NCBI GenBank assembly: GCA_002698785.1
Contig: PAAG01000051.1
Coordinates: 1 to 64,000 of the forward strand
Length of the DNA: 64,000 nt
Direction: 5' to 3'
Origin: Verrucomicrobiales bacterium
GTDB lineage: Bacteria > Verrucomicrobiota > Verrucomicrobiia > Verrucomicrobiales > DEV007
This document shows positions 27,193 to 43,777 of the stretch, piece by piece. Under the pieces are notes generated by a model. That model worked only from the letters and a program-made list of their open reading frames with translations. It was not told where the DNA came from and searched no databases. Each line of letters opens with the position of its first letter. Position 1 is the stretch's first letter. Both the position numbers and the translations under genes were made by a program.

Positions 27193-28239
27193 TCACCCAC
27201 TCCCAATCACATTTACTTGAAGGTCTCGAAGCACTCGAAGACTCCCCCACTCCGCTCCTCTCATTTTCCGTGCGCCCGTCGTTCGTTTCTCACCATAGAG
27301 CCCCTTTTCTTTTCCTCGGGCAAACACATCGTCAACGAATTCCGCTGAGCCTAGCACGACACCGTCGCAAAAGTACCGAACCCGGTCGCGCAAGACTTCC
27401 GGCACGGTCATCTCGCCACGTTTTTCGGTTACGGCTTCTATTTTTTCTTGTGAAAACCCACGCCGCGACCGCTGGCCGAGCTCCGCATTCTCTTCTCTTT
27501 CCTCTCCCTCTTCGAAGAGAAATTGCCGGTATCGACTCCGGGTGCGGGGCCAGCTTGCTTTGAAGTCGCCGTCTGCTAGCGATTCAGCGAGCGCGACCCC
27601 GAGCCCTTCCCTTGCCAGTTTCGCGTTCCGGGTGCCTGAAAGGGATTCGGCATACCCGCACCAGCGATACTCCTCGGGACGATTTACGATTCCTGCACGG
27701 ACAGGATTCAGATCGATGTAAGCGGCGATCGTCAGGAGTGCGTTCTGGTTGCCCTCGACCAACACACTTTTAAAACGCCCCTCCCAAAGCGTCCCGGTGC
27801 GACCGAGTCGTTTATTCATGTAGAGAGTTACGCGCTGCTTCAACTCTTTGAGAAAGAATGACAAGCTGCCTCGACGGTATTCGTAGCGGTCCAGAATTTC
27901 GCGGTGCCATCTTTCGTCGCCCGACTTGCGAGCCCGCTCCAGTTCTTGCTTCACGGTCAGAACCGCAGAACCATCGTGGAGGCGAGGCAAGACGGCGAGT
28001 AATTCTTCCTCGGTCAGCTCAGGCAGTTCATCGCGGTCCGGCACCTCAAGGAGGAGGTGAAAGTGATTGGACATCAGACAGTACGTGACTACCCGCACGC
28101 CCATGAAGGCTTCGAGATTGCGCATGATGTTACGGAAGACCTCTTTGTCTTTGGCCTCGAAGACCATACGTCGATCCACCACTCTCGAAACGACATGGTA
28201 AAACGAACGCCCCTCTTCAATCAGCCGTGCGGTTCTCAT
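27193..28239 (-). CDS. REP-associated tyrosine transposase (RAYT, Y1_Tnp family)
   Basis: A 348-residue HUH-type DNA nicking enzyme. It contains the metal-binding HFH (residues 59-61, CLMSNHFHLLLEVP) and the catalytic Tyr region AAYIDLNPVRAG (Tyr near 174). Residues ~225-348 form a long basic/acidic C-terminal extension, typical of Verrucomicrobia/Planctomycetes RAYTs. RAYTs are usually single-copy, domesticated-like proteins that act on REP palindromes rather than moving themselves. No terminal repeats of an IS200/IS605 element were found around it. Confidence 0.88.
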   Translation of the reverse strand: MRTARLIEEGRSFYHVVSRVVDRRMVFEAKDKEVFRNIMRNLEAFMGVRVVTYCLMSNHFHLLLEVPDRDELPELTEEELLAVLPRLHDGSAVLTVKQELERARKSGDERWHREILDRYEYRRGSLSFFLKELKQRVTLYMNKRLGRTGTLWEGRFKSVLVEGNQNALLTIAAYIDLNPVRAGIVNRPEEYRWCGYAESLSGTRNAKLAREGLGVALAESLADGDFKASWPRTRSRYRQFLFEEGEEREENAELGQRSRRGFSQEKIEAVTEKRGEMTVPEVLRDRVRYFCDGVVLGSAEFVDDVFARGKEKGLYGEKRTTGARKMRGAEWGSLRVLRDLQVNVIGSG

Positions 28240-28801
28240 GCAGGCAGGATGGGGTCTTCCGGAATTTTTTCAAGGGAAATTACAATTGTATGTCTGTCCC
28301 TTTAAACTTTAAACGTTAAACGATCATCGCGAGTCCCTGCTTCGCCGCCTTAATCTTCTCTCGGGCAGTCTTGCTCCCAAGGGCTGAGATGATCTGCGCC
28401 AAGGTAGGATATTCGGAAACAACAGCGGCATGGTTTGAAACATTGGTCTTTGAATGGAATTCCCACGCTCTCGTCGCAGCCTCGTCGCTACTCTCCCTTT
28501 TCGCTCTTTGCAGGAAATTCTGGAAACGTAAGAGTAAGGCAAAGGGATGGATAGCAGCCCTTTGCGCCGGTGGAATTTGCTGTATTTCCGTCACCTCGGT
28601 TACCCTGATTTCGGTCATCGTCACAACGGCAGCGCCTATGCTGGTTCAGGTTGGTGAGAATCAGGAAATGCCCACGACAAGATGGTCTGGCGGCGACCGG
28701 TCGGAGAATTGAGAAATGACAACTAACCCATTTCACTGACATCTTTTACTTTTGTCCAAGTTTTTCCTCCCCTATTCGCCTATTTCTACGATTATATATA
28801 T
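28240..28801. other. 562-bp interval upstream of the ubiquitin-like operon
   Basis: Between the transposase and the sigma-like gene. 28288-28320 contains an AT-rich run of repeated tttaaac and gtttaac units. Two opposing short frames cover 28319-28712 (see the small-ORF entry). The last ~60 bases before the sigma-like gene are AT-rich (tacgattatatata), suitable for a -10 element, but no convincing -35/-10 pair is called. Confidence 0.4.
28389..28712 (+). CDS. Possible small two-helix membrane protein
   Basis: A 107-residue frame whose ATG has a fair ribosome-binding site (AAGGG, 7 bases upstream). It encodes two hydrophobic stretches (~ALVAASSLLSLFALC and a longer GGICCISVTSVTLISVIVTT) separated by a basic loop, with a polar C-terminus. 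An opposing frame of 102 codons (28319-28624, minus) has similar codon use. I cannot say which, if either, is expressed. If real, it would sit ~95 bases upstream of the sigma-like gene. Confidence 0.3.
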   Translation: MICAKVGYSETTAAWFETLVFEWNSHALVAASSLLSLFALCRKFWKRKSKAKGWIAALCAGGICCISVTSVTLISVIVTTAAPMLVQVGENQEMPTTRWSGGDRSEN

Positions 28802-28807
28802 GTGGAG

Positions 28808-29455
28808 ATGAAATCGTCATTCGAGATCGGGGAAATCCTATTCACGATTTGTGCTGGAACATATGAGGAAGCCGAAGAGGCTTTCACGTGGTTATATCAC
28901 AATTCTTGGGAAGAGATTTGGGGTGTCCTCAATGCGAGAGCGACACTGTGCGGTCTATCAATTGAAGACAAAAAATCAGTGGTTATCCACGCTTTTCAGG
29001 AATTCTGGAAAAAGGCGCGAAATGGAAACATTAAGGATACAGATAAAGACCCTAGAGCTTTACTTCACTCAATAGCGTTCAATAGAGCAATCGACCTCAT
29101 AAGGCGGAACACTTCGAAGAAAAGACATCTCCCAAAAGAGGAGTGGGATGGCTACGTAAAAGAGGTCATACGAGAATCCTCATTCGCAGTTCAATGGAGA
29201 AGCCTTGAAAGAAAGGCACTTGCGGATGACTTGATAGAAGATTTCCGAACATGGATGATGGAACAAGACGGCGTTCGTCGGAGAACTGCCTTTGCGATGG
29301 CAGAGTTCTTTCCCGATATCGCGAATCCTAAAGAAATTCATGAAATGCTCATTGATTCAGTGGATCCTCCACCTACATACGAATCTGTGAAAAAGGCTCG
29401 ACAGGATGTTCTCAATAAATTTCGAGCGTCGATTGATCAAAAATACAGGAGGTAG
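28808..29455 (+). CDS. Divergent ECF-like sigma-70-family factor
   Basis: 215 residues (ATG 28808; GTG 28802 is possible). A sigma region 2-like stretch is visible: VIHAFQEFWKKARNGN, then DPRALLHSIAFNRAIDLIRR, which fits the core-binding and -10 recognition helices. Near the C-terminus PPPTYESVKKARQDVLNKFR resembles the region 4 recognition helix. The overall match is weak, so it is a divergent sigma or sigma-like regulator. It is the first gene of the AT-richer plus-strand cassette and is followed 2 bases later by the next gene with an AGGAGG site. It may direct transcription of this cassette. Confidence 0.68.
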   Translation: MKSSFEIGEILFTICAGTYEEAEEAFTWLYHNSWEEIWGVLNARATLCGLSIEDKKSVVIHAFQEFWKKARNGNIKDTDKDPRALLHSIAFNRAIDLIRRNTSKKRHLPKEEWDGYVKEVIRESSFAVQWRSLERKALADDLIEDFRTWMMEQDGVRRRTAFAMAEFFPDIANPKEIHEMLIDSVDPPPTYESVKKARQDVLNKFRASIDQKYRR

Positions 29456-29457
29456 AA

Positions 29458-29847
29458 GTGAGCACTATGAACGAAAATGACGAAAAAGCGTTGATCGCAC
29501 TTCTTGCTTTTCGGATGCGTCTTTGTTCGGAAGCCGATCTCAACCGCAAGGATATTGAAAAGCTTTTGTCTGAGACTTGTAAGGTAAGCGACGAGGAAAG
29601 AGCTTTCTTCGAGTCTACCGACCCACTAGAATTGATTCGAAAAGCTGATGCCGAAGAGAAGATTATTTCTTTTCCAAAGACATTGCCCCCTGCGGATTTC
29701 CTTCTTGCTTCAGGATTCAATCGAGGAGGACATTCAAAAGAGTCCGAGGTCAGCAAAAACGAAAGCGTAGAGAAGAAAAGAGAGGAAATAAGAAAATCAC
29801 TACAAGAGAATAAAGGCGATTCAGACGAACAATCTAATAATGATTGA
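29458..29847 (+). CDS. Small acidic protein of unknown function, coupled to sigma-like and ImmA-like genes
   Basis: 129 residues. The GTG start at 29458 is supported by AGGAGG at 29447-29452, with 5-base spacing; an ATG at 29467 would be too far. The N-terminal ~80 residues are predicted helical (ALIALLAFRMRLCSEADLNR) and the C-terminus is a disordered Lys/Glu/Ser/Asn tail. It is not a known family. The order sigma – this gene – metallopeptidase, with an 8-base overlap into the peptidase, suggests an anti-sigma-like factor or protease substrate, but that is inference only. Confidence 0.7.
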   Translation: MSTMNENDEKALIALLAFRMRLCSEADLNRKDIEKLLSETCKVSDEERAFFESTDPLELIRKADAEEKIISFPKTLPPADFLLASGFNRGGHSKESEVSKNESVEKKREEIRKSLQENKGDSDEQSNND

Positions 29848-30628
29848 CCCGAAAACAGAGGCTCTTTGCGAAAGTATTCGTGATATCTTCAGTTGCACAA
29901 AAATTCCGATCGATCCAAAAGTTATAGCAAAAAAAGAGGGGATAATCCTTGCCCCTGATGACTATGGTCCGGGATTTGACGGGCGTATCGAATTTCTCCT
30001 GCCAGAACGGAAGTTCGTTATTTACTACCAAGACAGTTATTTACACGTACCTGAGGTTCGTATTAGATTTAGCCTTGCCCATGAGTTAGGTCACTTTTAT
30101 CTCGACCACCATAGAGAAGCCCTTTGTCAGGGCATTTCGCACGACTCAGAACAAGCTCTGATGTCCGATAGAGAGAGAGAAAGAGAGGCAGACTGTTTTG
30201 CGGCCAGCCTCCTAATTCCGCGTCGAGAAATCAAACAGAGAACTGGTGACAAAGGTTTCATGGATATGAAGCAGATTGTAGAATTGGCTGATGATTTGAA
30301 TGTTTCAATTCCCGCTGCAGCGATTCGATACTGCGGATACACTGAAGAGAATTGCGCCATAATTTTGTCAAAGGATGGTATCATTAGTTGTCATATACCG
30401 TCAGATGGCATGAGAGATTTCGGTCTGTCCTTTATGCGCTCTGGGGACCGGGTGCCTCGAGGATCGTCTGCAGAGAAGCTTATTGAGTTCGGGAATTACA
30501 GAGAAATTCGAGGCGAATCCTCAACCACAGATACGTGGTACCAAAGAGGTTACGACTCGCAGCCCCTCTACGAAGATTCCATTTCCCTTGGGTACGATGG
30601 ACGGGTATTAACGATGCTTTCGGTCTGA
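29840..30628 (+). CDS. ImmA/IrrE-family zinc metallopeptidase
   Basis: 262 residues. The zinc motif is HELGH (81-85, in FSLAHELGHFYLDHH), with the third ligand in EREADCFAASLLIP (~114-118). This is the ImmA/IrrE family, whose members cleave repressors or regulators in response to stress or mobile-element signals. The last ~110 residues are a variable domain (SDGMRDFGLSFMRSGDRVPR, TWYQRGYDSQPLYEDS) that may sense a signal. It overlaps the previous gene by 8 bases. Its most economical role is to destroy the neighbouring regulator and so release the cassette. Confidence 0.9.
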   Translation: MIDPKTEALCESIRDIFSCTKIPIDPKVIAKKEGIILAPDDYGPGFDGRIEFLLPERKFVIYYQDSYLHVPEVRIRFSLAHELGHFYLDHHREALCQGISHDSEQALMSDREREREADCFAASLLIPRREIKQRTGDKGFMDMKQIVELADDLNVSIPAAAIRYCGYTEENCAIILSKDGIISCHIPSDGMRDFGLSFMRSGDRVPRGSSAEKLIEFGNYREIRGESSTTDTWYQRGYDSQPLYEDSISLGYDGRVLTMLSV

Positions 30629-30801
30629 AACTCTGTATCGCACCGCCAAAGCTACTTCATTTCTGTGTGGAGACGCTCAGTTAGGGTCAACAGACGGTAG
30701 TTCTGGGTCCGAAAAAGTATTCTGATATTCCGCCTCCCCGTACTCTCCGATTTTCCGAGGATAATCATAAGGGGGCTATTCACGCCCAATTTCACAATTC
30801 A

Positions 30802-30834
30802 ATGAGCAATTACAAGACAATAAAATTCCAATGA
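30802..30834 (+). CDS. Possible leader peptide overlapping the DUF2188-like gene
   Basis: A 10-codon frame starting ATGAGC whose TGA stop overlaps the next gene's ATG (30831) by one base pair frame (ATGA). Neither start has a strong ribosome-binding site. It could couple translation, or be chance. Confidence 0.2.
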   Translation: MSNYKTIKFQ

Positions 30835-31061
30835 ACGAAGACAACTATCACGCAGTAAAGACCGACAATGGATGGGGAACCAGAAGAGAAGGGGCATCGC
30901 GAATCGGAAAAGAATTCGCGACCCAGAGAGAAGCCTGGAATGACACTAGAGAAAAAGCAAAACGCTCAGGTGGCGAGGCCTTCTTGCATGGGGAAGATGG
31001 AAAGATCCGTGAGCGAAACACCTACCCTAGGAGTCGCGACAAGTTTCCGCCGAGGGGCTAG
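30831..31061 (+). CDS. DUF2188-like small protein
   Basis: 76 residues. YHAVKTDNGWGTRREGASR, followed by FATQREAWNDTREKAKR and GEAFLHGEDGKIRERNTYPR, matches the DUF2188 pattern (a small beta-beta-alpha-beta fold). The family is of unknown function. The last base of its TAG is only 2 bases before the GTG of the ubiquitin-like gene. A ~200-bp gap separates it from the peptidase gene, so a separate promoter may lie at 30629-30830. Confidence 0.72.
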   Translation: MNEDNYHAVKTDNGWGTRREGASRIGKEFATQREAWNDTREKAKRSGGEAFLHGEDGKIRERNTYPRSRDKFPPRG

Positions 31062-31063
31062 TC

Positions 31064-31366
31064 GTGGTCAACACTCAATTCAGCAGATTACGAAAACAAT
31101 TTATCGAAACAACAATGAAAAAGGAGTCAAAAACAGTCACTATCGTAGTTGAGGGCACACCTCATGATTGGCCAAAGGGCGAAATCTCATTCGTCGAAGT
31201 CGTAAAGCTAGAAGTTCCGGGCTACACCGAAAACTCAAACATTACCTATTCGGTAAAATATAAGAGAGGCCAAGGAAATAAACCTGAAGGCACTTTGTCT
31301 CTCGGCAACAGTGTAAAAGTGAAAGAAGGGATGGTATTCAATGTTTCAGAAACTGGTGAGTCATAA
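31064..31366 (+). CDS. Multiubiquitin-family ubiquitin-like protein
   Basis: A small ubiquitin-like protein (pfam14452-type) expected to be activated by the following E1-like protein and attached to a target. GTG 31064 has the better ribosome-binding site (AGGGG, 6-base spacing); ATG 31115 would give an 83-residue protein starting KKESKTVTIVVEG. The C-terminal signature is VKVKEGMVFNVSETGES. It holds one domain copy rather than several tandem ones. It does not end in Gly-Gly; the only Gly near the end is two residues before the terminus, so trimming of the last two residues would be needed if a terminal Gly is used. Its 3' end overlaps the E1-like gene by 26 bases. Confidence 0.78.
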   Translation: MVNTQFSRLRKQFIETTMKKESKTVTIVVEGTPHDWPKGEISFVEVVKLEVPGYTENSNITYSVKYKRGQGNKPEGTLSLGNSVKVKEGMVFNVSETGES

Positions 31367-32537
31367 TGAGGATCTCAACCGCCTTGTTGAGAAGGGATAT
31401 GCCATTTCATTTGATGAGGGTTACTTGGTTATCCGAGATATTCCGTATCTGAATGACCAAAAGGAATTACGCACGGGTGCTATTGTTACTAAATTAGTAT
31501 TCGTAAACGACAATGAAGTTCGGCAGGACAACCATCAAATCTTTTTCGCAGGTTCAATTCCATGCGGTCTTGACGGAAAGATAATCCCGAACCTTGGTAA
31601 TCGCGAAACTTCGCTTCCATTGGGATCAGGTTTTTCAGATGTTGTAGTGCAACGTTCGTTTTCGAACAAACCGAGACGGAAAAAGAGATTCGATGATTTC
31701 TATGAAAAAATCGAAAGCTACGTCACCATAATATCGGGTCCTGCCATAGAACTTCACGACGTAGATCCGTACACTTACAATTGTGAAGAGTCCTTCCACT
31801 CTGACTCTGTGTTTCGGTTTCACGACACAATGACAAGTCGGGCCGAGATTACGGATCTCTCCACCAAGCTCAAAGAAGATGTGATCGCCATCATAGGACT
31901 CGGCGGAACCGGGTCCTATATTCTTGATTACCTCGCGAAGGTTCCCGCGCGGGAGATTCGGCTCTTCGACGTCAAACCCTATCATGTTCACAATGCCTTC
32001 CGATCTCCGGGAAGATTGGGAAAAGGCGAGCTCGGCCTTGCAAAAGCCGAGGTTTACAAGTCTCGATACGATAATTTCCGCACAGGAATTTTTCACTATT
32101 CTACTCATGTGGACTCCTCGAACGATGAGGAATTCGAAGAGGTGACGTTCGCGTTTGTATGTGTCGATAAAGGTTCTTCACGGTCCGGTATCTTCGACCT
32201 GCTCATCGAAAAGGGAATTCCCTTTATTGATGTTGGTATGGGTCTGAACCGGAAGAAGGGCCCAATCGACGGTATGCTGCGAGTGACTTATTACTCAGCT
32301 GAGAGGAGCAAGGAGCTCAGGGAAATGGGGCTCGCAGAAATCAATGATCAACCTGAGGACATTTATCGGGCGAATATTCAGATTTCGGAACTGAATGCGC
32401 TTAACGCAGCACTGGCCGTGATTCGTTTCAAACAACTCCGCGGATTCTATTCAGCTGATCCTGCCTACGAGCATGCCTTATTCACCATTGCCGATCTTCA
32501 CAATACTGGAGATGAAGAGGTTGGAGATGAAGATTAG
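31341..32537 (+). CDS. E1-like ThiF-family adenylyltransferase with N-terminal DUF6791-like domain
   Basis: 398 residues. The ThiF/E1 fold occupies about residues 180-365: glycine loop IIGLGGTGSYILDYL (186-191 GLGGTG), ribose-binding Asp210 (RLFDVKPYHVHNAFR), Arg221, Lys235 (GLAKAE) and Asp276 in VCVDKGSSR. These match enzymes that adenylate a ubiquitin-like C-terminus. The ~165-residue N-terminal domain (GYLVIRDIPYLN, HQIFFAGSIPCGLDGKII) resembles what I recall as DUF6791. Cys occurs only at 75, 148 and 274; none follows the adenylation core, so no conventional E1 catalytic Cys is visible. The start lies inside the ubiquitin-like gene. Confidence 0.84.
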   Translation: MFQKLVSHNEDLNRLVEKGYAISFDEGYLVIRDIPYLNDQKELRTGAIVTKLVFVNDNEVRQDNHQIFFAGSIPCGLDGKIIPNLGNRETSLPLGSGFSDVVVQRSFSNKPRRKKRFDDFYEKIESYVTIISGPAIELHDVDPYTYNCEESFHSDSVFRFHDTMTSRAEITDLSTKLKEDVIAIIGLGGTGSYILDYLAKVPAREIRLFDVKPYHVHNAFRSPGRLGKGELGLAKAEVYKSRYDNFRTGIFHYSTHVDSSNDEEFEEVTFAFVCVDKGSSRSGIFDLLIEKGIPFIDVGMGLNRKKGPIDGMLRVTYYSAERSKELREMGLAEINDQPEDIYRANIQISELNALNAALAVIRFKQLRGFYSADPAYEHALFTIADLHNTGDEEVGDED

Positions 32538-32928
32538 ACTGGAACGAGTTTACTACATGCCGAAGGAATTGCAGTTCGGCATTCTCTACGTTTCGGAAGA
32601 ATTTGACGCTGCGGCACATCTATGTGCGTGTGGTTGCGGGGCAAAGATCCGTACGCCACTCGGTCCGGCATTCTGGAGATTCACGGACACCAAGAACGGG
32701 CCGTCCCTTTACCCATCTGTAGGGAACTGGCAACTGAATTGCCAGTCACATTATTGGATCACAGACGGAGAAATCATATGGGCGGAGCAATGGAGACCAG
32801 AAGAAATTGCTGCTGGACTACTAGCTCAAGATTCACGGCGTAAGGCTTTCTATGACCGCTTGAGTAAGCCCCAAAAAGGTCAGTTGAAGAAACTATGGTA
32901 TTGGGTGAAGCAGCTATTTAGGAATTAG
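32527..32928 (+). CDS. DUF6527-like protein with Cys/His cluster
   Basis: 133 residues from ATG 32527 (GAGG upstream; ATG 32512 is also in frame). Pattern HLCACGCG (His31, Cys33, Cys35, Cys37), LYPSVGNW, then NCQSHYWI (Cys72, Ser74, His75) matches DUF6527, a family repeatedly found with bacterial ubiquitin-like E1 genes. The Cys/His set suggests a metal site, and Ser74-His75 with Cys72 are candidates for catalysis. Whether it processes the ubiquitin-like protein or plays an E2/E3-like part is not shown by sequence. It overlaps the E1-like gene by 11 bases and ends the cassette. Confidence 0.83.
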   Translation: MKIRLERVYYMPKELQFGILYVSEEFDAAAHLCACGCGAKIRTPLGPAFWRFTDTKNGPSLYPSVGNWQLNCQSHYWITDGEIIWAEQWRPEEIAAGLLAQDSRRKAFYDRLSKPQKGQLKKLWYWVKQLFRN

Positions 32929-33150: not shown

Positions 33151-33181
33151 AACAAAAAAGCCGACGGTTTCCCGTCGGCTT
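33151..33181 (-). terminator. Rho-independent terminator downstream of ahcY
   Basis: Perfect 10-bp stem (aagccgacgg 33158-33167 with ccgtcggctt 33172-33181), 4-base loop. The minus-strand transcript from ahcY meets the hairpin and then a run of U residues, so this ends the ahcY transcript. The plus-strand cassette could use it too. Confidence 0.9.
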
Positions 33182-37889: not shown

Positions 37890-38486
37890 GTGAAAAGTTA
37901 TAATATTTTTGTGGGAGATACTTCTACAGAAACGGAAGCCGACCTCGTTACCCGTGTGCAGAGTGGAGAACTGGAAGCTTATGAAGAGCTTCTGAGCCTC
38001 CACAGCACTCACTTGCGAGCGTTTATCGCCATGAAATTGCCAATTCCCCATCTCATCGATGAGATCGCGCACGAAACGTTCGTGTTCGCGCACCGGCATA
38101 TCATGGACTTTGAGGCAGGGACGGATTTTGGGAAATGGCTGCGAGCGATCGCTTTTAATCTGGTCCGGAAAGAAACGCTGCGTCACCAGCGTCTGTCGAA
38201 GAACCAGGAGAAGTTCCTGGAGCATCATCTCGTGCAGCAGGCCGGGAAGGGTGAATTCGCTCCGGAATCTCCCACGATGGTATATCTTGAGGAGTGCCTG
38301 CAGCGGCTTCCCGATAAACAGAGGGAGCTACTCAATCACAAGTATACCCTTTCGGAATCTTCCCGGGAGATCGCCGAAGCGTTTCAACAAAGTGAAGCCT
38401 GGGTGCGGACAACGCTTTGCCGCATTCGAACCAGCCTTCGACAGTGTATCGAACACAAGATCGAAGCCTCACCTGAACCTGTATAA
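37890..38486 (+). CDS. ECF sigma factor
   Basis: 198 residues from GTG 37890. Region 2: LVTRVQSGELEAYEELLSLH, FVFAHRHIMDFEAGTDFGKWLRAIAFNLVRKE. Region 4: CLQRLPDKQRELLNHKYTLS, then EIAEAFQQSEAWVRTTLCRIR. This is the planctomycete/verrucomicrobial ECF group that pairs with FecR-domain proteins. The next gene starts 6 bases after its stop and encodes that partner. Confidence 0.92.
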   Translation: MKSYNIFVGDTSTETEADLVTRVQSGELEAYEELLSLHSTHLRAFIAMKLPIPHLIDEIAHETFVFAHRHIMDFEAGTDFGKWLRAIAFNLVRKETLRHQRLSKNQEKFLEHHLVQQAGKGEFAPESPTMVYLEECLQRLPDKQRELLNHKYTLSESSREIAEAFQQSEAWVRTTLCRIRTSLRQCIEHKIEASPEPV

Positions 38487-38492
38487 TTTCAC

Positions 38493-40094
38493 GTGGACTC
38501 TGAACATTTAGAAGCCTATCTCGCTAACGAACTGGACGAAAACGGACGTCGCCAAGTGGAGTCTGCGTTGCGTCGCGACGCGGATCTGCGCGACAGCTTT
38601 GTGCACCAGATGCAGATGGACTCTGCGCTGAAAGTCTTTCTCGGTGATGGCGCCATGGAGGATAAGCAGAGCTTCGAACGAGGAGTGCTGGCCCAGCTCG
38701 AGTCTGAAGGAGCGGGCGATTATCGAAATTTTGCCAAGTCTGTCCTCACAGAAATCGTCGAGGAACGTGAAGGAGTTCGTCCGATCCACTGGCCGGATTT
38801 GATTAAGGCGGGCGTGATTGCTGCGGCAGCATCGATCGCGTTGATGTTTCTCCTGCAGAAAATCATTTTCCGCGAAGGTTCGCTAGTTCGCTCCTTTGCA
38901 GGCATTACAGAGACGCAAACGCCACAGCAATTTCTCGCCCGCATCGAGAATTATTCTGATCTGTCTCTTTCTTCCGAATCGGAAAAGAAGATCCGGAAGG
39001 ATGGCTGGATATCCGAAGGATTGATCCGCGTAGAAGAAGGCTCGGCTCTGATTGCCTTTAACTCTGGAGCAACGGTGATAGTCGATGCGCCCTCGGAGAT
39101 CAGTATCGAATCGGGAAACCGTGTCTTTTTGAAGTCTGGTCGCCTGACGGCAAACGTTCCGCCGCCAGCCACTGGCTTCACTGTCAACACGCCACGTCTG
39201 AACGCTGTCGATATCGGCACTCGCTTTGGTGTTTCGGTTGATGAAAATGGCGACTCCGAACTTCACGTGATGCAGGGGGAAGTGGAAGCGAGCAGAAGCA
39301 GTGGAAACTCGGTAACTACTCTTGTCAGAGAAGGTCTCGCCCTCCGTGCCGACGGCCGAACGAGGACGGAGCTTCAGGCAGTCCCCTACGAGGGAGATGT
39401 TTTCACGATGCAAGCGGGGAACCTCTCAAGTCCCGAACCTTTGTTGCAATACACTTTCAACGAATCGGGAGGGGCCATGATCGAAGACACGGGTAGCCTT
39501 CGTCAATTTGATGTTCCTATCGTTGGCCAGGGTGAGCTTGAAAACTCTCCCCTCCGAGCTGCGGGACAGATTGGGAGCGGGCTTGTTTTCCAACCCGGTG
39601 ACTTTATCGATGTCCCGTTGTCCCGAGATTTCCGACTGGATGAGGCGTACACAATTTCCTTCTGGGTAAAGATTCCGCCGAAGCTGAATCGTGATTCAGA
39701 CGAGATCATTTTTCAGTATGGACGTGAGGGATATGGCTGGAAGGTAGGCTGCAATTTCGATCATGACCGAGCCAATCGTGGCGCTCTTTTCATCGAGTCC
39801 GGTGGAGGATTTGTCGTTGGCTCCACGGACCTCGCGGACGGAAACTGGCACCACGTAGCGTATCGATTCCTGGGAGGAAAGGATGCGAGCCTGCCGAGCC
39901 ACCTCCACATTTTTGTCGACAGTTTCCCTGAACAAATCAGCCAGTTTCTTCCTGGAGAAATTGATTCCGGTCGAGCCGGGCTACTTCGCCTCGGCGGCAA
40001 TGACGAACGTTCCGGAATGCACGGATGGCTGGACGAATTCGCCATCTATCCCGAGGCTCTACCCACTCCCGTATTACAATCTTTTGGAAATTAG
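38493..40094 (+). CDS. FecR-domain anti-sigma-like protein with LamG domain
   Basis: 533 residues. The N-terminal cytoplasmic segment (~1-105, EAYLANELDENGRRQVESAL) is the likely sigma-binding part. One transmembrane helix follows (KAGVIAAAASIALMFLLQKI), then a FecR-like beta-domain (~165-285, GLIRVEEGSALIAFNSGATV) and a LamG/concanavalin A-like domain (~312-533) with YTISFWVKIPPKL and NWHHVAYRFL. GTG 38493 is used. It is expected to transduce an outside signal to the ECF sigma factor that precedes it. Confidence 0.9.
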   Translation: MDSEHLEAYLANELDENGRRQVESALRRDADLRDSFVHQMQMDSALKVFLGDGAMEDKQSFERGVLAQLESEGAGDYRNFAKSVLTEIVEEREGVRPIHWPDLIKAGVIAAAASIALMFLLQKIIFREGSLVRSFAGITETQTPQQFLARIENYSDLSLSSESEKKIRKDGWISEGLIRVEEGSALIAFNSGATVIVDAPSEISIESGNRVFLKSGRLTANVPPPATGFTVNTPRLNAVDIGTRFGVSVDENGDSELHVMQGEVEASRSSGNSVTTLVREGLALRADGRTRTELQAVPYEGDVFTMQAGNLSSPEPLLQYTFNESGGAMIEDTGSLRQFDVPIVGQGELENSPLRAAGQIGSGLVFQPGDFIDVPLSRDFRLDEAYTISFWVKIPPKLNRDSDEIIFQYGREGYGWKVGCNFDHDRANRGALFIESGGGFVVGSTDLADGNWHHVAYRFLGGKDASLPSHLHIFVDSFPEQISQFLPGEIDSGRAGLLRLGGNDERSGMHGWLDEFAIYPEALPTPVLQSFGN

Positions 40095-40150
40095 ACCTTT
40101 CGCACCTTATAATTACTAGAAAAAAATCAGATACTTTGTAACAGACATTC

Positions 40151-40177
40151 GATCACTCGATATCCATCTCGGTGATC
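40151..40177. promoter_or_regulatory. Dyad upstream of the DUF1549/DUF1553 gene
   Basis: gatcac (40151-40156) and gtgatc (40172-40177) with 15 bases between, in the 110-bp gap before the DUF1549/DUF1553 gene. A possible operator or ECF-related site; weak evidence. Confidence 0.25.
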
Positions 40178-40204
40178 CTATCTTTCACCCGAAAAAACCA
40201 AGCC

Positions 40205-42418
40205 ATGACCAAATCTAAACAGTGGAAACAAATCACAGGCTTCATTCTGGCCGCCGTTCTTCTGGTTCCTACTCTCCGCGCTGAGATGCGCACCTGGACA
40301 TCTGCAGACGGTAAGACTCTCGAAGCTGAATTCGCAGGGACCCAGGGAGCGGGTTCGAGTGCAAAAGTAATGCTCAAGCTACCAGACGGCAGCATGGTTC
40401 CCTATCCGATCTCGAAACTCAGCGAGGAAGACCGACTGTTTGTGAAGGGTAACCTTCCTGATGATCCCTCGGCTCTTGCTGCAGAGATTGACAAGCTCGT
40501 CCTGAACAAGATGAAGGAGAGCTACTACGGTCTTCGCGACGAACTGGCTGCTCTGCCAGGGAACACTAACATGAGCAACGCTGACAAGGCCAAGCGGAAA
40601 GAGGAAATCGAGCGCGAGATGCAAATGTGCATCCCCAACGAAATGACGGACGACAACCAGTTTCTCCGCCGCATCTACCTCGATGTTGCTGGTCGAATCC
40701 CAACTTATGATGAAGCTGAGGCTTTTCTTAACAGCCGCTCTGACACTAAGCGCGCCGACCTGATCGACGAGCTTCTCGAGTCTGAAGGATTCGTAATGCG
40801 GATGTTTAACTACTACTCCGATCTTTTCCGCATTCGTGAAGGAATCTTCATGATGGGCAATGGCGACCTGAAGGCCGACCCATACATCGAGTGGGTAAAG
40901 CAGTCCATTCGCGATGACAAGCCCTACGACGAAATGGTTCGCGACATGCTCACGGCAAACGGCCAGATCTGGGAAGACCCAGCTTCCGGCTATCTTCTCG
41001 CCGACTCAGGTATGCGCCTCTGTAATCTTTCTAACACGTTCACCGTGTTTATGGGCACCGAGATCACTTGTGCGCAGTGCCACGACCACCCGTTCGAAGA
41101 AGTCTACCAGATGGACTTCTACAAGATGGCTTCCTTCATGGGTGAGACCGAGACACGCGCTCGCGGTGGGAATTCCATGATGATGATGGGTGGTGACAAT
41201 TACCGCCAGGAAGTGCAGCGCATGAGCAAAGTGCTCAAAGACGCTGGCAAGCTGCGCGAGCGTGAGAACGAAGACCGCCAGCTGCGTCAGTGGCTCGGGG
41301 TGAAAAGCATCATGGTTTATGATGATGGCACCAACGCGGTCCGCCTTCCCCACGACTACAAATACGACGATGGCGAACCAGAGATGGAAGTGAAGCCAGA
41401 CACCTACTTCGGCGATCGCATGAATGTCGAAGAATTTGAATCTCCTCGCCACGCGTTTGCCGAGTGGGTTTCCTCGCCGGGTAATCCTCGTTTCACGATT
41501 AATGCAGTGAACCGTTTCTGGAAGATTGCTTTTGGGCTCGCTCAGATTGAGCCGGTCTACAACATCCCCGGTCACCTGGATGGACAGGCGCAGAACTACG
41601 AACTGCTCGTCTTCCTTGAGGAGATGATGAAAGATCTCGATTACAGCGTGAAGGATTTCTTCCGCGTCATTTACAACAGCAAGGCCTATCAGCGAGAGGC
41701 TGAGACGATGTCACCATCTCTCACCCAGGTCGACAAAGGCACGTATCACTTCCCTGGTCCTATTCTTCGCCGCATGTCTGCGGAACAGCTCTGGGACTCC
41801 CTTGTCACTCTGACAACTCCGGATCCGGAAGCCTTCACTCGCTCTGGGGCTGAGGAGTACAAGGAATGGATGCACACCGATACAACGACTTTGAAGACAG
41901 CCGATGAAATCATGTCCTACAAAGAATCGTGGAGAGACATTGGTAAGATTCGGAAATACAACGAGCAGTACGTGAGCCGTGACGACTATGTTGATGGTGA
42001 GGAAATGTTCCGCGCCTCTGAAATGCGCCAGCCAATGCCGGACAGTCACTTCCTGCGGATGTTTGGCCAGTCTGACAAGCAGCTCATTGAGAATCAGTTC
42101 ACGACCGGTTCTTCCCCTCAAGTGATGGCGTTGTTGAACGGCAAAATCACGAACAAGATCCTCACAAGCCCCGACGCCTACCTCATCAAAGAGATCGCGA
42201 ACGGAACCGGCTCGAAGCGCGATAATATTGAGAAAATCTTCCTCAGCGTCCTGACACGCCAGCCCACTTCTGAAGAGAAGCAGGTAGCCCAGTCCGGCAT
42301 GCGCGCCAAGCGCGAGAGCGGCATGAGCGACCAAGAAAAAATGGAAGCTGAGGCAGACGCCATCGGCAACGTCATCTGGGCACTCGTGAATACCCGCGAG
42401 TTCCTTTTCATCCAGTAA
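40205..42418 (+). CDS. SHD1 + DUF1549 + DUF1553 exported protein
   Basis: 737 residues from ATG 40205 (upstream in-frame start rejected because it precedes the signal). Signal peptide ITGFILAAVLLVPTLRA. An SHD1-like domain follows (MRTWTSADGKTLEAEFAGT ... VPYPISKLSEEDR), then DUF1549 (RRIYLDVAGRIPTYDEAEAF, RADLIDELLESEGFVMR), a c-type-like CAQCHDHPFEEVYQ motif, and DUF1553 (FTINAVNRFWKIAFG). The CxxCH can bind haem. These proteins are paired with DUF1501 proteins in planctomycetes and Verrucomicrobia; function is unknown. Confidence 0.93.
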   Translation: MTKSKQWKQITGFILAAVLLVPTLRAEMRTWTSADGKTLEAEFAGTQGAGSSAKVMLKLPDGSMVPYPISKLSEEDRLFVKGNLPDDPSALAAEIDKLVLNKMKESYYGLRDELAALPGNTNMSNADKAKRKEEIEREMQMCIPNEMTDDNQFLRRIYLDVAGRIPTYDEAEAFLNSRSDTKRADLIDELLESEGFVMRMFNYYSDLFRIREGIFMMGNGDLKADPYIEWVKQSIRDDKPYDEMVRDMLTANGQIWEDPASGYLLADSGMRLCNLSNTFTVFMGTEITCAQCHDHPFEEVYQMDFYKMASFMGETETRARGGNSMMMMGGDNYRQEVQRMSKVLKDAGKLRERENEDRQLRQWLGVKSIMVYDDGTNAVRLPHDYKYDDGEPEMEVKPDTYFGDRMNVEEFESPRHAFAEWVSSPGNPRFTINAVNRFWKIAFGLAQIEPVYNIPGHLDGQAQNYELLVFLEEMMKDLDYSVKDFFRVIYNSKAYQREAETMSPSLTQVDKGTYHFPGPILRRMSAEQLWDSLVTLTTPDPEAFTRSGAEEYKEWMHTDTTTLKTADEIMSYKESWRDIGKIRKYNEQYVSRDDYVDGEEMFRASEMRQPMPDSHFLRMFGQSDKQLIENQFTTGSSPQVMALLNGKITNKILTSPDAYLIKEIANGTGSKRDNIEKIFLSVLTRQPTSEEKQVAQSGMRAKRESGMSDQEKMEAEADAIGNVIWALVNTREFLFIQ

Positions 42419-42451
42419 TTCAGTAGAGAAAACTTTAACCACCACAAACCC

Positions 42452-43777
42452 ATGAAAGATCAATTGAATCGACTCGACCAACTGAGCCGTCGTCAGTTCG
42501 TGGCACGCACAGCCAAGACTGCTCTCGGTGTCAGCATTGTTCCCCTGGCCGGCACATCCAGCAAAGTGATCGCCGCCGCCGGTGGAGGAAAAGCAGAACA
42601 CTGTATTTTCTTCTACATGGCCGGAGGGATGACCCACATGGATACCTTCGACCCAAAACCCGGCACTGAGACCGGAGGTAACACGAAAGGCATTCCGACA
42701 GGTGTTGCCGGTGTTGAGTTGTCCGAGTTCATGCCCAAGATGGCAGAGCGCTTCAACGACATTGCCGTGGTTCGCTCCATGACGCAGAAGACTGGTGACC
42801 ACCGTGGTGGCAGCTACTGGATGCACACCAGTTACCAGCCTCGCGCCACGATCGTTCACCCTTCCATGGGTCCCTGGGCACAGAAGCTGAAGGGCAAGAT
42901 GCACGAGACCCTTCCTGATTCTGTGGTGATCGGTGGCGGTGGTAATCACCCGGGAGCTGGCTTTTTTGGTCCCGCCTTGTCTCCGCTTCCGATTGGAGAT
43001 CCTGACAAGGGAGTTCAGAATTCCCGCTTCTACGAAGGTGTCGATGAAGACCTCTTCGACAAGAGGCTCGAGTTGATGAACACCTTCGATGATTCTTTTC
43101 GCCGGAAGTTCAAGACAGACGAGGTTACTGCATACACGCAGTTCTACGACGAAACCCTTCAGTTGATGAAGAGTGAGGACCTTGACACTTTCGACCTTAC
43201 GAAAGAAGACAACTATCAGGAGAAGGTGAATCGCTATGGCAACTCCCGCGTTGGCAAAGGAGCGCTCCTCGCCAAACGCCTCGTAAGTTCAGGGGTCCGC
43301 TTCGTTGAAGTAGTCTCCGGAGGTTGGGACATGCACAATGATCTCTGGAACTCCATCCAGACAACTGGCGGTAGCCTCGACCAGGCTCTGGGCTCCCTGA
43401 TCGATGACCTCAAAGCAGAAGGCTTGTTTGAGAAGACACTGATCGTGGTTGGCACCGAGTTTGGACGGACTCCGAAGATCAACGTAAATGGCGGTCGTGA
43501 CCACCACCCACGAGTCTTTTCTACCATGTTCGCTGGCGGAGGTATCTCCGGTGGACAGGTTTACGGTAAGTCCGACAAACTCGGAAATGCTGTCGAAGAG
43601 AACCCTGTAACTCCGGGTGAGTTCAACGCAACCATCGCACACGCCCTTGGACTTGATCTCAATGAGGTAGTCTACTCTCCATCGGGCCGCCCCTTCCTCG
43701 TTGCTGGTCATACTCGCGATCCAAAGACGGACGAAATTATCACCGAGCACAATCCCATCATGGAGTTGTTCTCCTAA
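42452..43777 (+). CDS. DUF1501 exported protein
   Basis: 441 residues. The N-terminus contains a twin-arginine-type signal (LSRRQFVARTAKTALGVSI), so Tat export is likely. The DUF1501 (sulfatase-like fold) body has HCIFFYMAGGMTHMDTFDPK, RSMTQKTGDHRGGSYWMHT, EVVSGGWDMHNDLWN and VVGTEFGRTPKINVNGGRDH. It starts 33 bases after the DUF1549/DUF1553 gene and is followed by a strong terminator, so the two form one transcript. Confidence 0.94.
   Translation: MKDQLNRLDQLSRRQFVARTAKTALGVSIVPLAGTSSKVIAAAGGGKAEHCIFFYMAGGMTHMDTFDPKPGTETGGNTKGIPTGVAGVELSEFMPKMAERFNDIAVVRSMTQKTGDHRGGSYWMHTSYQPRATIVHPSMGPWAQKLKGKMHETLPDSVVIGGGGNHPGAGFFGPALSPLPIGDPDKGVQNSRFYEGVDEDLFDKRLELMNTFDDSFRRKFKTDEVTAYTQFYDETLQLMKSEDLDTFDLTKEDNYQEKVNRYGNSRVGKGALLAKRLVSSGVRFVEVVSGGWDMHNDLWNSIQTTGGSLDQALGSLIDDLKAEGLFEKTLIVVGTEFGRTPKINVNGGRDHHPRVFSTMFAGGGISGGQVYGKSDKLGNAVEENPVTPGEFNATIAHALGLDLNEVVYSPSGRPFLVAGHTRDPKTDEIITEHNPIMELFS

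Follow-up and report, generated by a model that had tools for sequence, protein, structure and literature searches.

A candidate sigma-based controller, built on the CapP peptidase, beside a ubiquitin-like operon in a Verrucomicrobiales bacterium

Seven plus-strand ORFs at positions 28802-32928 of a 64,000-nucleotide stretch of contig PAAG01000051.1 from a Verrucomicrobiales bacterium (the whole stretch is called the window here) raise the question of whether a sigma-like gene, a small gene and a peptidase gene form one unit with the ubiquitin-like (Ubl) operon that follows them, and what they would do for it. The right half, the Ubl operon, is of a known class, and the left half, the sigma-X-CapP triplet, is the newer part. 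A sequence-only reading had listed the seven genes, and all are real and lie where it placed them, with an 8-base overlap of the X and ImmA ORFs (29840-29847), a 26-base overlap of the Ubl and E1 ORFs (31341-31366) and, between the CapP and DUF2188 genes, a gap given as about 200 bp that measures 202 bp (30629-30830). Two details need qualifying: the ATG at 28808 assigned to the sigma-like gene exists, but the ORF opens two codons earlier with GTG 28802, and the 11-base overlap of the E1 and DUF6527 genes holds if DUF6527 starts at ATG 32527, but not for the longest ORF, which runs from 32473. The families proposed for an HMM check (DUF2188, Multi_ubiq, DUF6791 with ThiF, and DUF6527), and M78 as well, all scored above the curated Pfam cut-offs. 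The features are as follows.

28766 to 28791, plus strand: candidate promoter/operator element CCTCCCC-N14-TACGA, upstream of the sigma-like gene; suggestive only
28802 to 29455, plus strand: ECF-like sigma factor, class B (GTG 28802, ATG 28808), by profile-profile comparison and AF2 C-terminal fold
29458 to 29847, plus strand: protein X (ATG 29467), family-less; proposed anti-sigma and CapP substrate
29840 to 30628, plus strand: CapP-type ImmA/IrrE metallopeptidase, HELGH at residues 81-85
30733 to 30758, plus strand: second candidate element, CCTCCCC-N14-TCCGA, upstream of DUF2188/Ubl; suggestive only
30831 to 31061, plus strand: DUF2188 protein (Pfam E 3.1e-18; PADLOC candidate PDC-S16 E 6.7e-22)
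31064 to 31366, plus strand: single-domain Ubl (Multi_ubiq), probable start 31115, C-terminus TGES
31341 to 32537, plus strand: E1-like protein, DUF6791 fused to a ThiF domain (Pfam 3.1e-44 and 2.5e-11)
32527 to 32928, plus strand: DUF6527 protein (longest ORF from 32473), CxCxC...CxxH putative zinc site, Pfam E 1.3e-24
33158 to 33181, plus strand: stem-loop ending in a T-rich tail, in the stretch that separates the island from ahcY; from a terminator-like scan

The DUF2188/Multi_ubiq/E1/DUF6527 operon class was predicted in 2006 (Iyer row 6e) and is now called Bub, per the parts of the two accounts available to us (PMC1779556, PMC13373217), in agreement with the earlier statement that sets of Multi_ubiq, E1 and metal-binding protein are known from comparative genomics. 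As described there, the class shares with the window a Multi_ubiq Ubl (with between one and three domains across the class), an E1-like protein in which an uncharacterized N-terminal domain replaces JAB, a small metal-binding protein, a sporadic distribution and Cap controllers nearby; we infer that DUF6791 is the uncharacterized domain X of the 2006 account. In contrast, the window has one Ubl domain, neither BubB/E2 nor JAB, an added DUF2188 gene, and sigma-X-CapP as the controller. The Bub operons catalogued number 544. The inactive E2/RWD-like protein BubB is also missing from some operons of the 2006 account, which prints the metal signature of the small protein as C-x3-C-x(35-38)-H-x2-C (PMC1779556, available part). 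The window DUF6527 reads C51-x3-C55-x34-C90-x2-H93, close in spacing but with the last two ligands swapped, and in longest-ORF numbering C51, C53 and C55 are kept in 80/81 rows and C90 and H93 in 81/81. The Ubl matches Pfam Multi_ubiq (E 2.1e-15) and the multi-ubiquitin protein of PDB 9cd2 (E 1.3e-5), and it probably starts at ATG 31115, which would give 83 aa like many relatives.

The window peptidase is, by its sequence, CapP. It matches Pfam M78 (1.3e-11), PADLOC capP over its full length (E 2.5e-47) and the CapP structure 7t5t (E 4.7e-16), and residues H81, E82, H85 and E114 are kept in 58/58 aligned rows, the window included. In the CapP tree, sigma-coupled CapPs fall into two clades, class A (19/20, support 99/98) and class B (5/5, support 100/99). 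Class B, the smaller, consists of the window and four further loci (L107, L182, L183 and L184) and is sister to an HTH-coupled clade. The CapP of L039 grouped with the sigma-coupled CapPs before the sigma and X genes of that locus were noticed. A first tree included, and a second left out, 15 non-sigma-coupled rows (long branches, near-copies and long, possibly fused forms); L165, with a CapP ORF of only 141 aa, is in neither.

The first protein of the window, taken alone, yields weak matches: NCBIfam PRK13919 (3.7e-4) and TIGR02937 (0.002) are both far under cut-off, and Pfam Sigma70_r2 (0.098) is under cut-off as well. Taken with its relatives, it is firmly assigned as an ECF-like sigma on profile evidence. 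The profile of the five class-B members matched a profile of five ECF sigmas with Prob 91.9 (E 7e-7, 164 columns), and adding the two ECF sigmas that the window sigma's own profile had retrieved, for seven ECFs, gave Prob 96.4 (E 1.4e-9; range 164-171 columns), whereas four unrelated control profiles gave Prob 0.1-1.0. Two relatives (L106 and L108) score above the Pfam Sigma70_r2 cut-off. In an AF2 model built on an alignment with class A in 7/9 rows, the predicted C-terminal domain is nearest to region 4 of E. coli sigmaE by fold search, at a Z of 7.9 that the tool places in the middling range for helical domains; beyond that domain the model is poor (mean pLDDT 54.6). Class-B against class-A sigma profiles gave Prob 0.5 with two class-B members and 56.5 with five, and the CapP tree splits the classes; a single sigma family for all triplets, in its simple form, was therefore rejected. 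Likewise rejected was the idea that the window sigma came from a phage or a plasmid: 72,556 plasmid records and 50,697 phage records gave no match at E 0.01, and viral contigs no confirmed match.

Protein X, about 130 aa long, has no family match above cut-off among the Pfam, NCBIfam and PADLOC models. Counterparts stand at the equivalent position in the other four class-B loci, those of L182 and L184 being assigned from position and alignment only, and class-B and class-A X proteins show no detectable kinship by profile comparison (Prob 1.2).

Do the two halves belong together? The sequence-only reading had left this open, and we answer that they do, because sigma-X-CapP triplets recur beside the Ubl cassette and beside other immune operons. 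Triplets adjoin a Ubl cassette of the same type in seven loci (L005, L012, L023, L038, L039, L069 and L170), a Bub operon with E2 and JAB-E1 in L163, Bil ABCD in L168, 6A-MBL in L164 and L167, CBASS in L172, a SMODS cyclase in L182, a DncV-like cyclase with DUF2188 in L108, and, in Pontibacter actiniarum and Spirosoma linguale, operons with Multi_ubiq that lie on named plasmids. The Pontibacter triplet, from strain DSM 19842, consists of WP_025603826/825/824 and has a divergent promoter. Within class B, L183 shows a weak ThiF match only, and L107 is cut short by the end of its contig, the part present showing no immune gene. Among the 30 stretches examined after sigma searches, 13 held sigma matches without CapP (L109-L112, L159-L162, L169, L173, L175, L185 and L186). 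From the side of the operon, CapP adjoins in 56 of 82 loci of E1 relatives, with an HTH partner in 46 and as sigma-X-CapP in six, and none of these CapP loci scored for HTH and sigma together: beside CapP, the two are mutually exclusive. The arrangement had been called unusual, which fits the rare sigma-type partner (6/82) but not CapP, which is common (56/82), or DUF2188, which is present in 19/82.

We would like to note, separately, that genes we do not recognise adjoin the triplet at two loci, L166 and L171, with L158 and L174 as less certain cases.

The island has 43-48% GC against 54-59% in both flanks, the low-GC block covers controller and Ubl operon alike, and the ahcY flank lacks the island in 3/3 congeners examined. 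The stem-loop at 33158-33181 has the most G-C pairs among the terminator-like sites of the region, which are weak as a class because eight were found against 5.1 (sd 2.4) in shuffles. Two sequence motifs were tried and set aside. The pattern CCTCCCC-N14-TMCGA has two exact copies in the 64 kb window, three in the 7.0 Mb genome and one in the 3.0 Mb genome G068, directly before the sigma gene, and in a scan with a matrix built from two sigma upstream regions the operon site comes 11th among 127,918 positions (42-base) or 131st among 127,942 (30-base). We rejected it as promoter evidence because it was chosen by eye, 12 of 100 window shuffles also give two copies at up to one mismatch, and a pairwise test of the two elements was null (149/300 shuffles as good); it is not recognisable in L182-L184. 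The T-tract AAGWTTTTTTG occurs, at one mismatch, in 5/17 further sigma-type intergenic regions against 0/26 HTH-type ones (P 0.006), and at two mismatches in 10/17 against 7/26 (P 0.057). It was dropped as a sigma-linked motif because its exact core is absent (0/17 sigma-type regions) and GC differs between the two sets.

The controllers named in the available part of a recent account are CapW, CapH+CapP and CapK+CapS, all presented there as repressor systems; CapH+CapP is among those known from Bub operons, with CapP activated by ssDNA and cleaving the repressor CapH at immune operons (PMC13373217). The window shares with CapH+CapP a CapP homologous over nearly its whole length and the position beside an immune operon. 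In contrast, the HTH repressor CapH is replaced by the ECF-like sigma and X, which occupy its position, and no HTH family matched any of the seven window proteins in Pfam. CapK+CapS and CapW are likewise dedicated regulators of adjacent immune operons, common to several systems; the window differs in having no kinase/STAS or WYL protein and in its sensor chemistry, and Pfam found neither GHKL kinase nor STAS-wHTH domains among its genes. The Bil models gave no match to the window proteins, and the same library detects BilA-D in L168. A further comparison is with those ECF sigma/anti-sigma pairs in which proteolysis releases the sigma. They resemble the triplet in gene order (sigma, small gene, protease), but the protease of the triplet belongs to the ImmA/IrrE metallopeptidases, and its neighbours form an immune-type operon. 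Titles and abstract openings among the literature matches listed, which largely exclude subscription papers and preprints, contained no report of a sigma-type immune controller.

We propose that the whole island is a mobile cassette for immunity or stress, in which a controller (28802-30628) is combined with an effector operon (30831-32928). At rest, X would keep the sigma inactive and the Ubl operon would be off. Phage or other DNA damage would produce single-stranded DNA, which would switch on CapP, and CapP would cut X; the freed sigma, with RNA polymerase, would then transcribe both the triplet that encodes it and the DUF2188-Ubl-E1-DUF6527 operon. The DUF6791-E1 would adenylate the C-terminus (...TGES) of the single-domain Ubl, which would be attached to targets or assembled without the usual cysteine relay, aided by DUF6791 and the putative zinc protein DUF6527. 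As a whole, this chain is about evenly balanced between right and wrong, and its parts differ: the triplet very likely controls the operon, and the sigma probably acts as an activator; X being an anti-sigma cut by CapP is a toss-up, and ssDNA or DNA damage is a somewhat favoured signal. For the output, Ubl attachment has a modest lead, and an anti-phage role is as plausible as another; in the part available to us, the account of Bub operons states that phage protection is not yet demonstrated (PMC13373217).

That an ordinary stress sigma module stands beside a Ubl island by chance would suit the 202-bp gap, the co-orientation of triplet and operon (most other triplets are divergent) and the resulting layout unlike most triplets, but the recurrence of triplets beside immune or Ubl operons in several phyla, the presence of CapP beside 56/82 relatives of the cassette and the low-GC block across both halves render it very improbable. 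The sigma-like protein might instead have no polymerase role and be a CapH-like DNA-binding repressor, with CapP cutting either it or X, as corepressor, to bring about derepression. In CapH+CapP, the substrate is indeed a DNA-binding repressor, per the available part of that account (PMC13373217); moreover, class-B CapP is sister to the HTH-coupled clade, so the new partner would have replaced a repressor, and the lone sigma sequence shows weak conservation of region 2. Nevertheless, both the region-2 and the region-4 stretches of class B align with ECF sigmas, when a repressor would need region 4 only, and X, found in every triplet read (once as a fusion), would be superfluous; we regard a repressor as unlikely. 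It is less likely still that X serves CapP as an adaptor or as a sensor subunit, in which case the target of CapP would lie elsewhere. With longest starts, 16 of the 17 triplets measured have an X ORF that runs into the CapP ORF, and L170 carries a fusion of part of X with CapP, but X also overlaps the sigma ORF in 13/17 triplets and lies within nine bases of it in 16/17, and the class-A X profile, which was the sole search for X there, scored in 0/46 CapP+HTH loci. Sigma and anti-sigma genes often overlap or nearly touch.

The chemistry of the operon also admits a different reading, in which its product is a small modified peptide or a protein thiocarboxylate (ThiF/MccB-like chemistry) rather than a tagged protein. 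Pfam found no E2 or JAB among the seven window genes, as the sequence-only reading had observed. Across 81 rows, no E1 cysteine besides that of the CVD motif (76/81), which we take not to be at the catalytic place, is kept in 90% of relatives; the next best reaches 46/81. Residue Y342 of the E1 is kept in 81/81 rows. The earlier term "conjugation" is thus not borne out, there being no E2, no JAB and no conserved catalytic E1 cysteine. The terminal Ser of the Ubl, invariant in 82/82 rows (G98 in 80/82), takes the place of Gly-Gly, and the structural relatives of the E1 include MccB and ThiF. That DUF6791 hides an E2 or a JAB was rejected at the level of profiles: its profile gave Prob up to 1.3 against 13 whole or partial proteins (E2s, JABs, Ubl and E1s from L163, L167, L168, L184 and L188), and up to 0.3 against the E2s of L163, L167 and L168. 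On the other side, the closest fold to the E1 model (AF2, pLDDT 85.6) is Citrobacter BubCD (residues 168-395, Z 24.1, rmsd 2.9, 225 aligned, in a search covering residues 152-396), an E1 solved in complexes with Ubl and BubB according to the structure titles, and related operons such as that of L163 carry E2 and JAB. We consider such a peptide or thiocarboxylate product, like the repressor, unlikely, and retain Ubl attachment as the preferred output.

Controllers set the timing at which dangerous immune operons are switched on. We lean slightly towards reading sigma-X-CapP as a general controller of immune operons, the fourth of its kind and the first to be based on a sigma factor. In it, a protease activated by DNA damage would free an ECF-like sigma for the neighbouring operon; such controllers would have arisen from CapP on two or more occasions and have moved among CBASS, Bil, 6A-MBL and Bub-type systems. 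If true, this reading would mean that such operons are switched on positively, and it would account for some of the database runs annotated "hypothetical protein - hypothetical protein - ImmA/IrrE" (two examples examined). The triplet would also be a marker by which new defence operons could be sought, and it joins CapP biology to sigma/anti-sigma biology, with the three-gene form present in the cultured Pontibacter actiniarum DSM 19842.

The cassette was found as the sequence-only reading had described it: seven plus-strand genes with the overlaps reported there, arranged as a putative controller half and a ubiquitin-like (Ubl) operon half.

28802-32928, plus strand: all seven genes, by ORF reading
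28802-29455, plus strand: sigma-like factor
29458-29847, plus strand: X, a protein of about 130 aa
29840-30628, plus strand: peptidase CapP
30831-32928, plus strand: Ubl operon (DUF2188 protein, Ubl, E1-like protein, DUF6527 protein)

Five of the proteins were assigned Pfam families above cut-off (Peptidase_M78, DUF2188, Multi_ubiq, DUF6791 + ThiF, and DUF6527), with one copy of the Multi_ubiq domain in the Ubl; the HMM check proposed for Multi_ubiq and DUF6527 thus came out in favor of both. When searched as single sequences, the first protein yielded weak sigma matches and the second (X) no family match. Judged by its sequence, the peptidase is CapP, matching the PADLOC capP model over nearly its full length (E 2.5e-47) and the CapP structure PDB 7t5t (E 4.7e-16). 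CapP is described in the excerpted passages of Chambers et al. 2026 (PMC13373217) as a protease that adjoins immune operons and, on binding ssDNA, cleaves the repressor CapH.

The cassette is an accessory island, since its GC content is low (43-48%, versus 54-59% in the flanks), the window's own is the sole listed match to reach into it when 18 close genomes (that of the window included) are searched with DNA, and ahcY has other neighbors in all three congeners opened. The right neighbors were read by eye as ahcY and metK, and the ahcY end is present in 16 of the 18 genomes. Immediately to the left, at window 27193-28239, lies a gene that by eye resembles a REP-type (REP-associated) transposase. 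Separately, window 37890-43777 encodes an ordinary ECF sigma factor together with a LamG-like protein and two large secreted proteins, a gene combination typical of Planctomycetota and Verrucomicrobiota.

The Ubl cassette is of a kind already known, to which the window adds one member. That sets of Ubl, E1, and metal protein are known from comparative genomics is borne out by Iyer et al. 2006 (PMC1779556), whose operons, in the passages excerpted, combine a Ubl of one to three domains, an E1 with a JAB or uncharacterized N-terminal domain, and a protein with the signature C-x3-C-x(35-38)-H-x2-C. We identify the uncharacterized domain with DUF6791 and the metal protein with DUF6527, and on this assignment the window fits the class, although its DUF6527 has the final two ligands in reversed order. 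The excerpts of Chambers et al. 2026 (PMC13373217) treat a family named Bub, and we read the 2006 class as Bub, a reading of our own to which the predicted fold lends support: the E1 as modelled by AlphaFold2 (pLDDT 85.6) has its nearest fold in Citrobacter BubCD (Z 24.1 over 225 residues; Foldseek E 9e-14). Of 288 genomes sampled in the window's phylum, 3 encode DUF6791, and relatives of the E1 are encoded in 115 of 72,556 plasmid records.

The chemistry of this operon probably differs from the textbook cysteine relay, because among 81 aligned close relatives of the E1 a single cysteine is conserved in at least 90% (that of a CVD motif, 76/81; the next reaches 46/81), all 82 Ubl rows end in Ser rather than Gly-Gly (mostly as TGQS, in the window as TGES), and the cassette contains neither an E2 nor a JAB peptidase, as had been noted from the sequence. 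Y342 of the E1 is invariant (81/81), and the BubCD structures include, by title, a Y370F mutant; the two positions may be equivalent.

We then consider which controllers accompany this E1 family in 82 loci (the best 80 of 188 relatives plus L005 and L006; L numbers denote DNA stretches from other genomes or plasmids). Of these, 56 have CapP no more than 3.5 kb upstream, accompanied by an HTH protein in 46, by sigma and X in six (L005, L012, L023, L038, L039, and L069), and by neither, as judged by profiles, in four, whose long CapP may be a fusion with the HTH. CapP paired with an HTH protein is therefore the usual controller; in a minority of loci, the window's among them, sigma and X occupy CapH's place. 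The claim that the arrangement is unusual holds in part: CapP is common and DUF2188 is present in 19 of 82 loci, but the sigma and X partner is found in only 6 of 82. The profiles were trained on part of the 82 loci, L039 not among them, contigs of several loci end less than 2.2 kb upstream, and the count of 82 includes four near-copies. HTH_3 was matched by 22 of 28 HTH-position proteins scanned. An HTH score was also obtained in 6 of the 26 loci without CapP, one of which (L084) has a marginal sigma score (9e-3). Upstream of the Ubl, CapP's place is taken by HATPase-type proteins in L009, L018, and L025 and by a wHTH protein in L016; these match, and are consistent with, the published CapK+CapS controller type.

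Several loci deserve separate mention. The four near-copies (L075, L076, L077, and L080) share identical CapP and near-identical Ubl loci under differing MAG labels (Thermoflexales, Kiritimatiellae, Hyphomonadaceae, and Rhizorhabdus), which likely reflects either very recent transfer or an error in binning. In Bacteroidota, two Ubl loci that lack CapP (L045:6338-7694 and L048:3192-4515) have an ECF sigma that is clear by profile (E 2.3e-11 and 7.3e-8), accompanied by a 239/242-aa protein, which we take to resemble the Panacea/SocA domain, and may represent an additional sigma-based controller type. In L030:4188-7552, a further Ubl locus without CapP, the upstream pair is a subtilase (S8) and an AAA ATPase. 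The DUF6527 gene of a Roseobacter (L046:9184-12040) seems to lie in two pieces about 2.4 kb apart, as an insertion would leave it.

Sigma-coupled triplets (sigma-X-CapP) fall into class A and class B, the latter comprising the window, L107, L182, L183, and L184. Of five reference ECF sigmas, the class-A sigma profile matches four (hmmsearch E 3e-14 to 9e-9), these four having come from the sigma search of the window's phylum and the fifth being the window's ECF sigma at 37890; two class-A sigmas pass the Pfam region-2 cut-off. The class-B profile matches the five ECFs with Prob 91.9 (E 7e-7), rising to 96.4 (E 1.4e-9) upon addition of two found by the class-B search itself, versus 0.1-1.0 for four unrelated profiles. 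The AlphaFold2 model of the window's sigma is poor overall (pLDDT 54.6), with residues 140-210 better modelled; its top 22 PDB rows are by title sigma factors or transcription-initiation complex chains, and the best is sigmaE region 4 on -35 DNA at Z 7.9, where a Z below 8 can reflect a common arrangement.

A 61-row CapP tree unites class B in a single clade (5/5, 100/99). Its sister group consists of five HTH-coupled CapPs from Ubl loci of alphaproteobacteria, with support of 99/93 for all ten together. Class A forms another clade (19/20, 99/98), with the long-branched L170 outside. Since the classes are separate clades and class B is sister to HTH-coupled CapPs, the HTH repressor would most simply have been exchanged for a sigma partner twice, or once with reversals. 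An earlier 70-row tree had placed L039 among sigma-coupled CapPs while its neighbors scored unknown, and its opposite strand then revealed sigma and X genes (E 1e-9 and 2e-9).

The triplet is a module in its own right. With sigma profiles as the sole search condition, we obtained 18 matches in 15 of 288 genomes of the window's phylum (probably Verrucomicrobiota; E 0.01), 9 in 8 of 343 for the phylum of L012 (Planctomycetota; 1e-5), and 19 in 18 of 345 for that of L069 (Bacteroidota); the class-B profile matched 6 of 335 genomes of the window's class. Among 30 stretches opened, chiefly the best-scoring ones, CapP stands in the triplet arrangement in 17 and is absent beside sigma in 13 (L109-L112, L159-L162, L169, L173, L175, L185, and L186). 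Most X were recognized by profile, those of L164, L171, L172, L182, and L184 by position. X overlaps CapP in 16 of 17 triplets and sigma in 13; in L174 it lies 303 bases from sigma, the CapP ORF of L165 is short, and in L170:7818-9452 X profile positions 4-59 are fused to a 544-aa CapP-like peptidase (24.9 bits).

Genes beside the 17 triplets
L163: Bub with E2 and JAB-E1
L164, L167: 6A-MBL (MBL protein above cut-off; cap2_3 partner just or somewhat below)
L168: BilA-D (E 4.9e-43 to 2.1e-134)
L170: Ubl and DUF6791-type E1
L172: CBASS patatin and cyclase
L108: DUF2188, DUF6602, and DncV-like cyclase
L182: SMODS cyclase about 0.8 kb off
L184: Ubl-like, JAMM-motif, and ThiF proteins (ThiF by Pfam, the others by eye)
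L183: weak ThiF (E 0.0044)
L106, L165, L171: DUF2188, with no recognized partner in the operon
L158: HTH protein and an ORF without match
L166: ORF without match
L174: no immune gene recognized
L107: contig end

Nine triplets thus have a clear immune or Ubl enzyme, one a weak match, three DUF2188 only, and the other four none of these recognized. DUF2188, a PADLOC candidate defence protein, lies beside triplets in L106, L108, L165, and L171 as well as in the window. Family-less genes next to triplets (L166:5349-6599 and L171:6062-6967; less surely L158:5138-7052 and L174:8259-10902) are candidates for undescribed defence systems. A CapP query from L163 matched 102 plasmid records, the best two of which (Spirosoma linguale pSLIN02 and a Pontibacter actiniarum plasmid) both encode sigma, X, and CapP divergently from a Multi_ubiq gene; on the latter, sigma and X are annotated "hypothetical". 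Right after the Pontibacter triplet (L188:5949-7669) come genes for UmuD and a Y-family polymerase, a neighborhood that would suit control by DNA damage.

What is new here is the variant with sigma and X of a CapP-based controller, a kind already known. No sigma-based immune controller was in print among the literature matches listed, and the sigma-factor passages excerpted from PMC13373217 do not treat a sigma gene but the anti-sigma resemblance of CapK and CapS. In CapH+CapP, according to excerpts of the same paper, CapP detects ssDNA and cleaves the partner holding the operon off. CapP of the window would likewise sense ssDNA and cut a partner that keeps the operon off. Because sigma occupies the operon-facing place, this substrate would be a sigma inhibitor, with X as the sole candidate, as it is encoded between sigma and CapP, overlaps each of them in most triplets, is once partly fused to CapP, and has by eye no obvious membrane segment. 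The released sigma would then transcribe the triplet together with the Ubl operon, which would be produced on demand.
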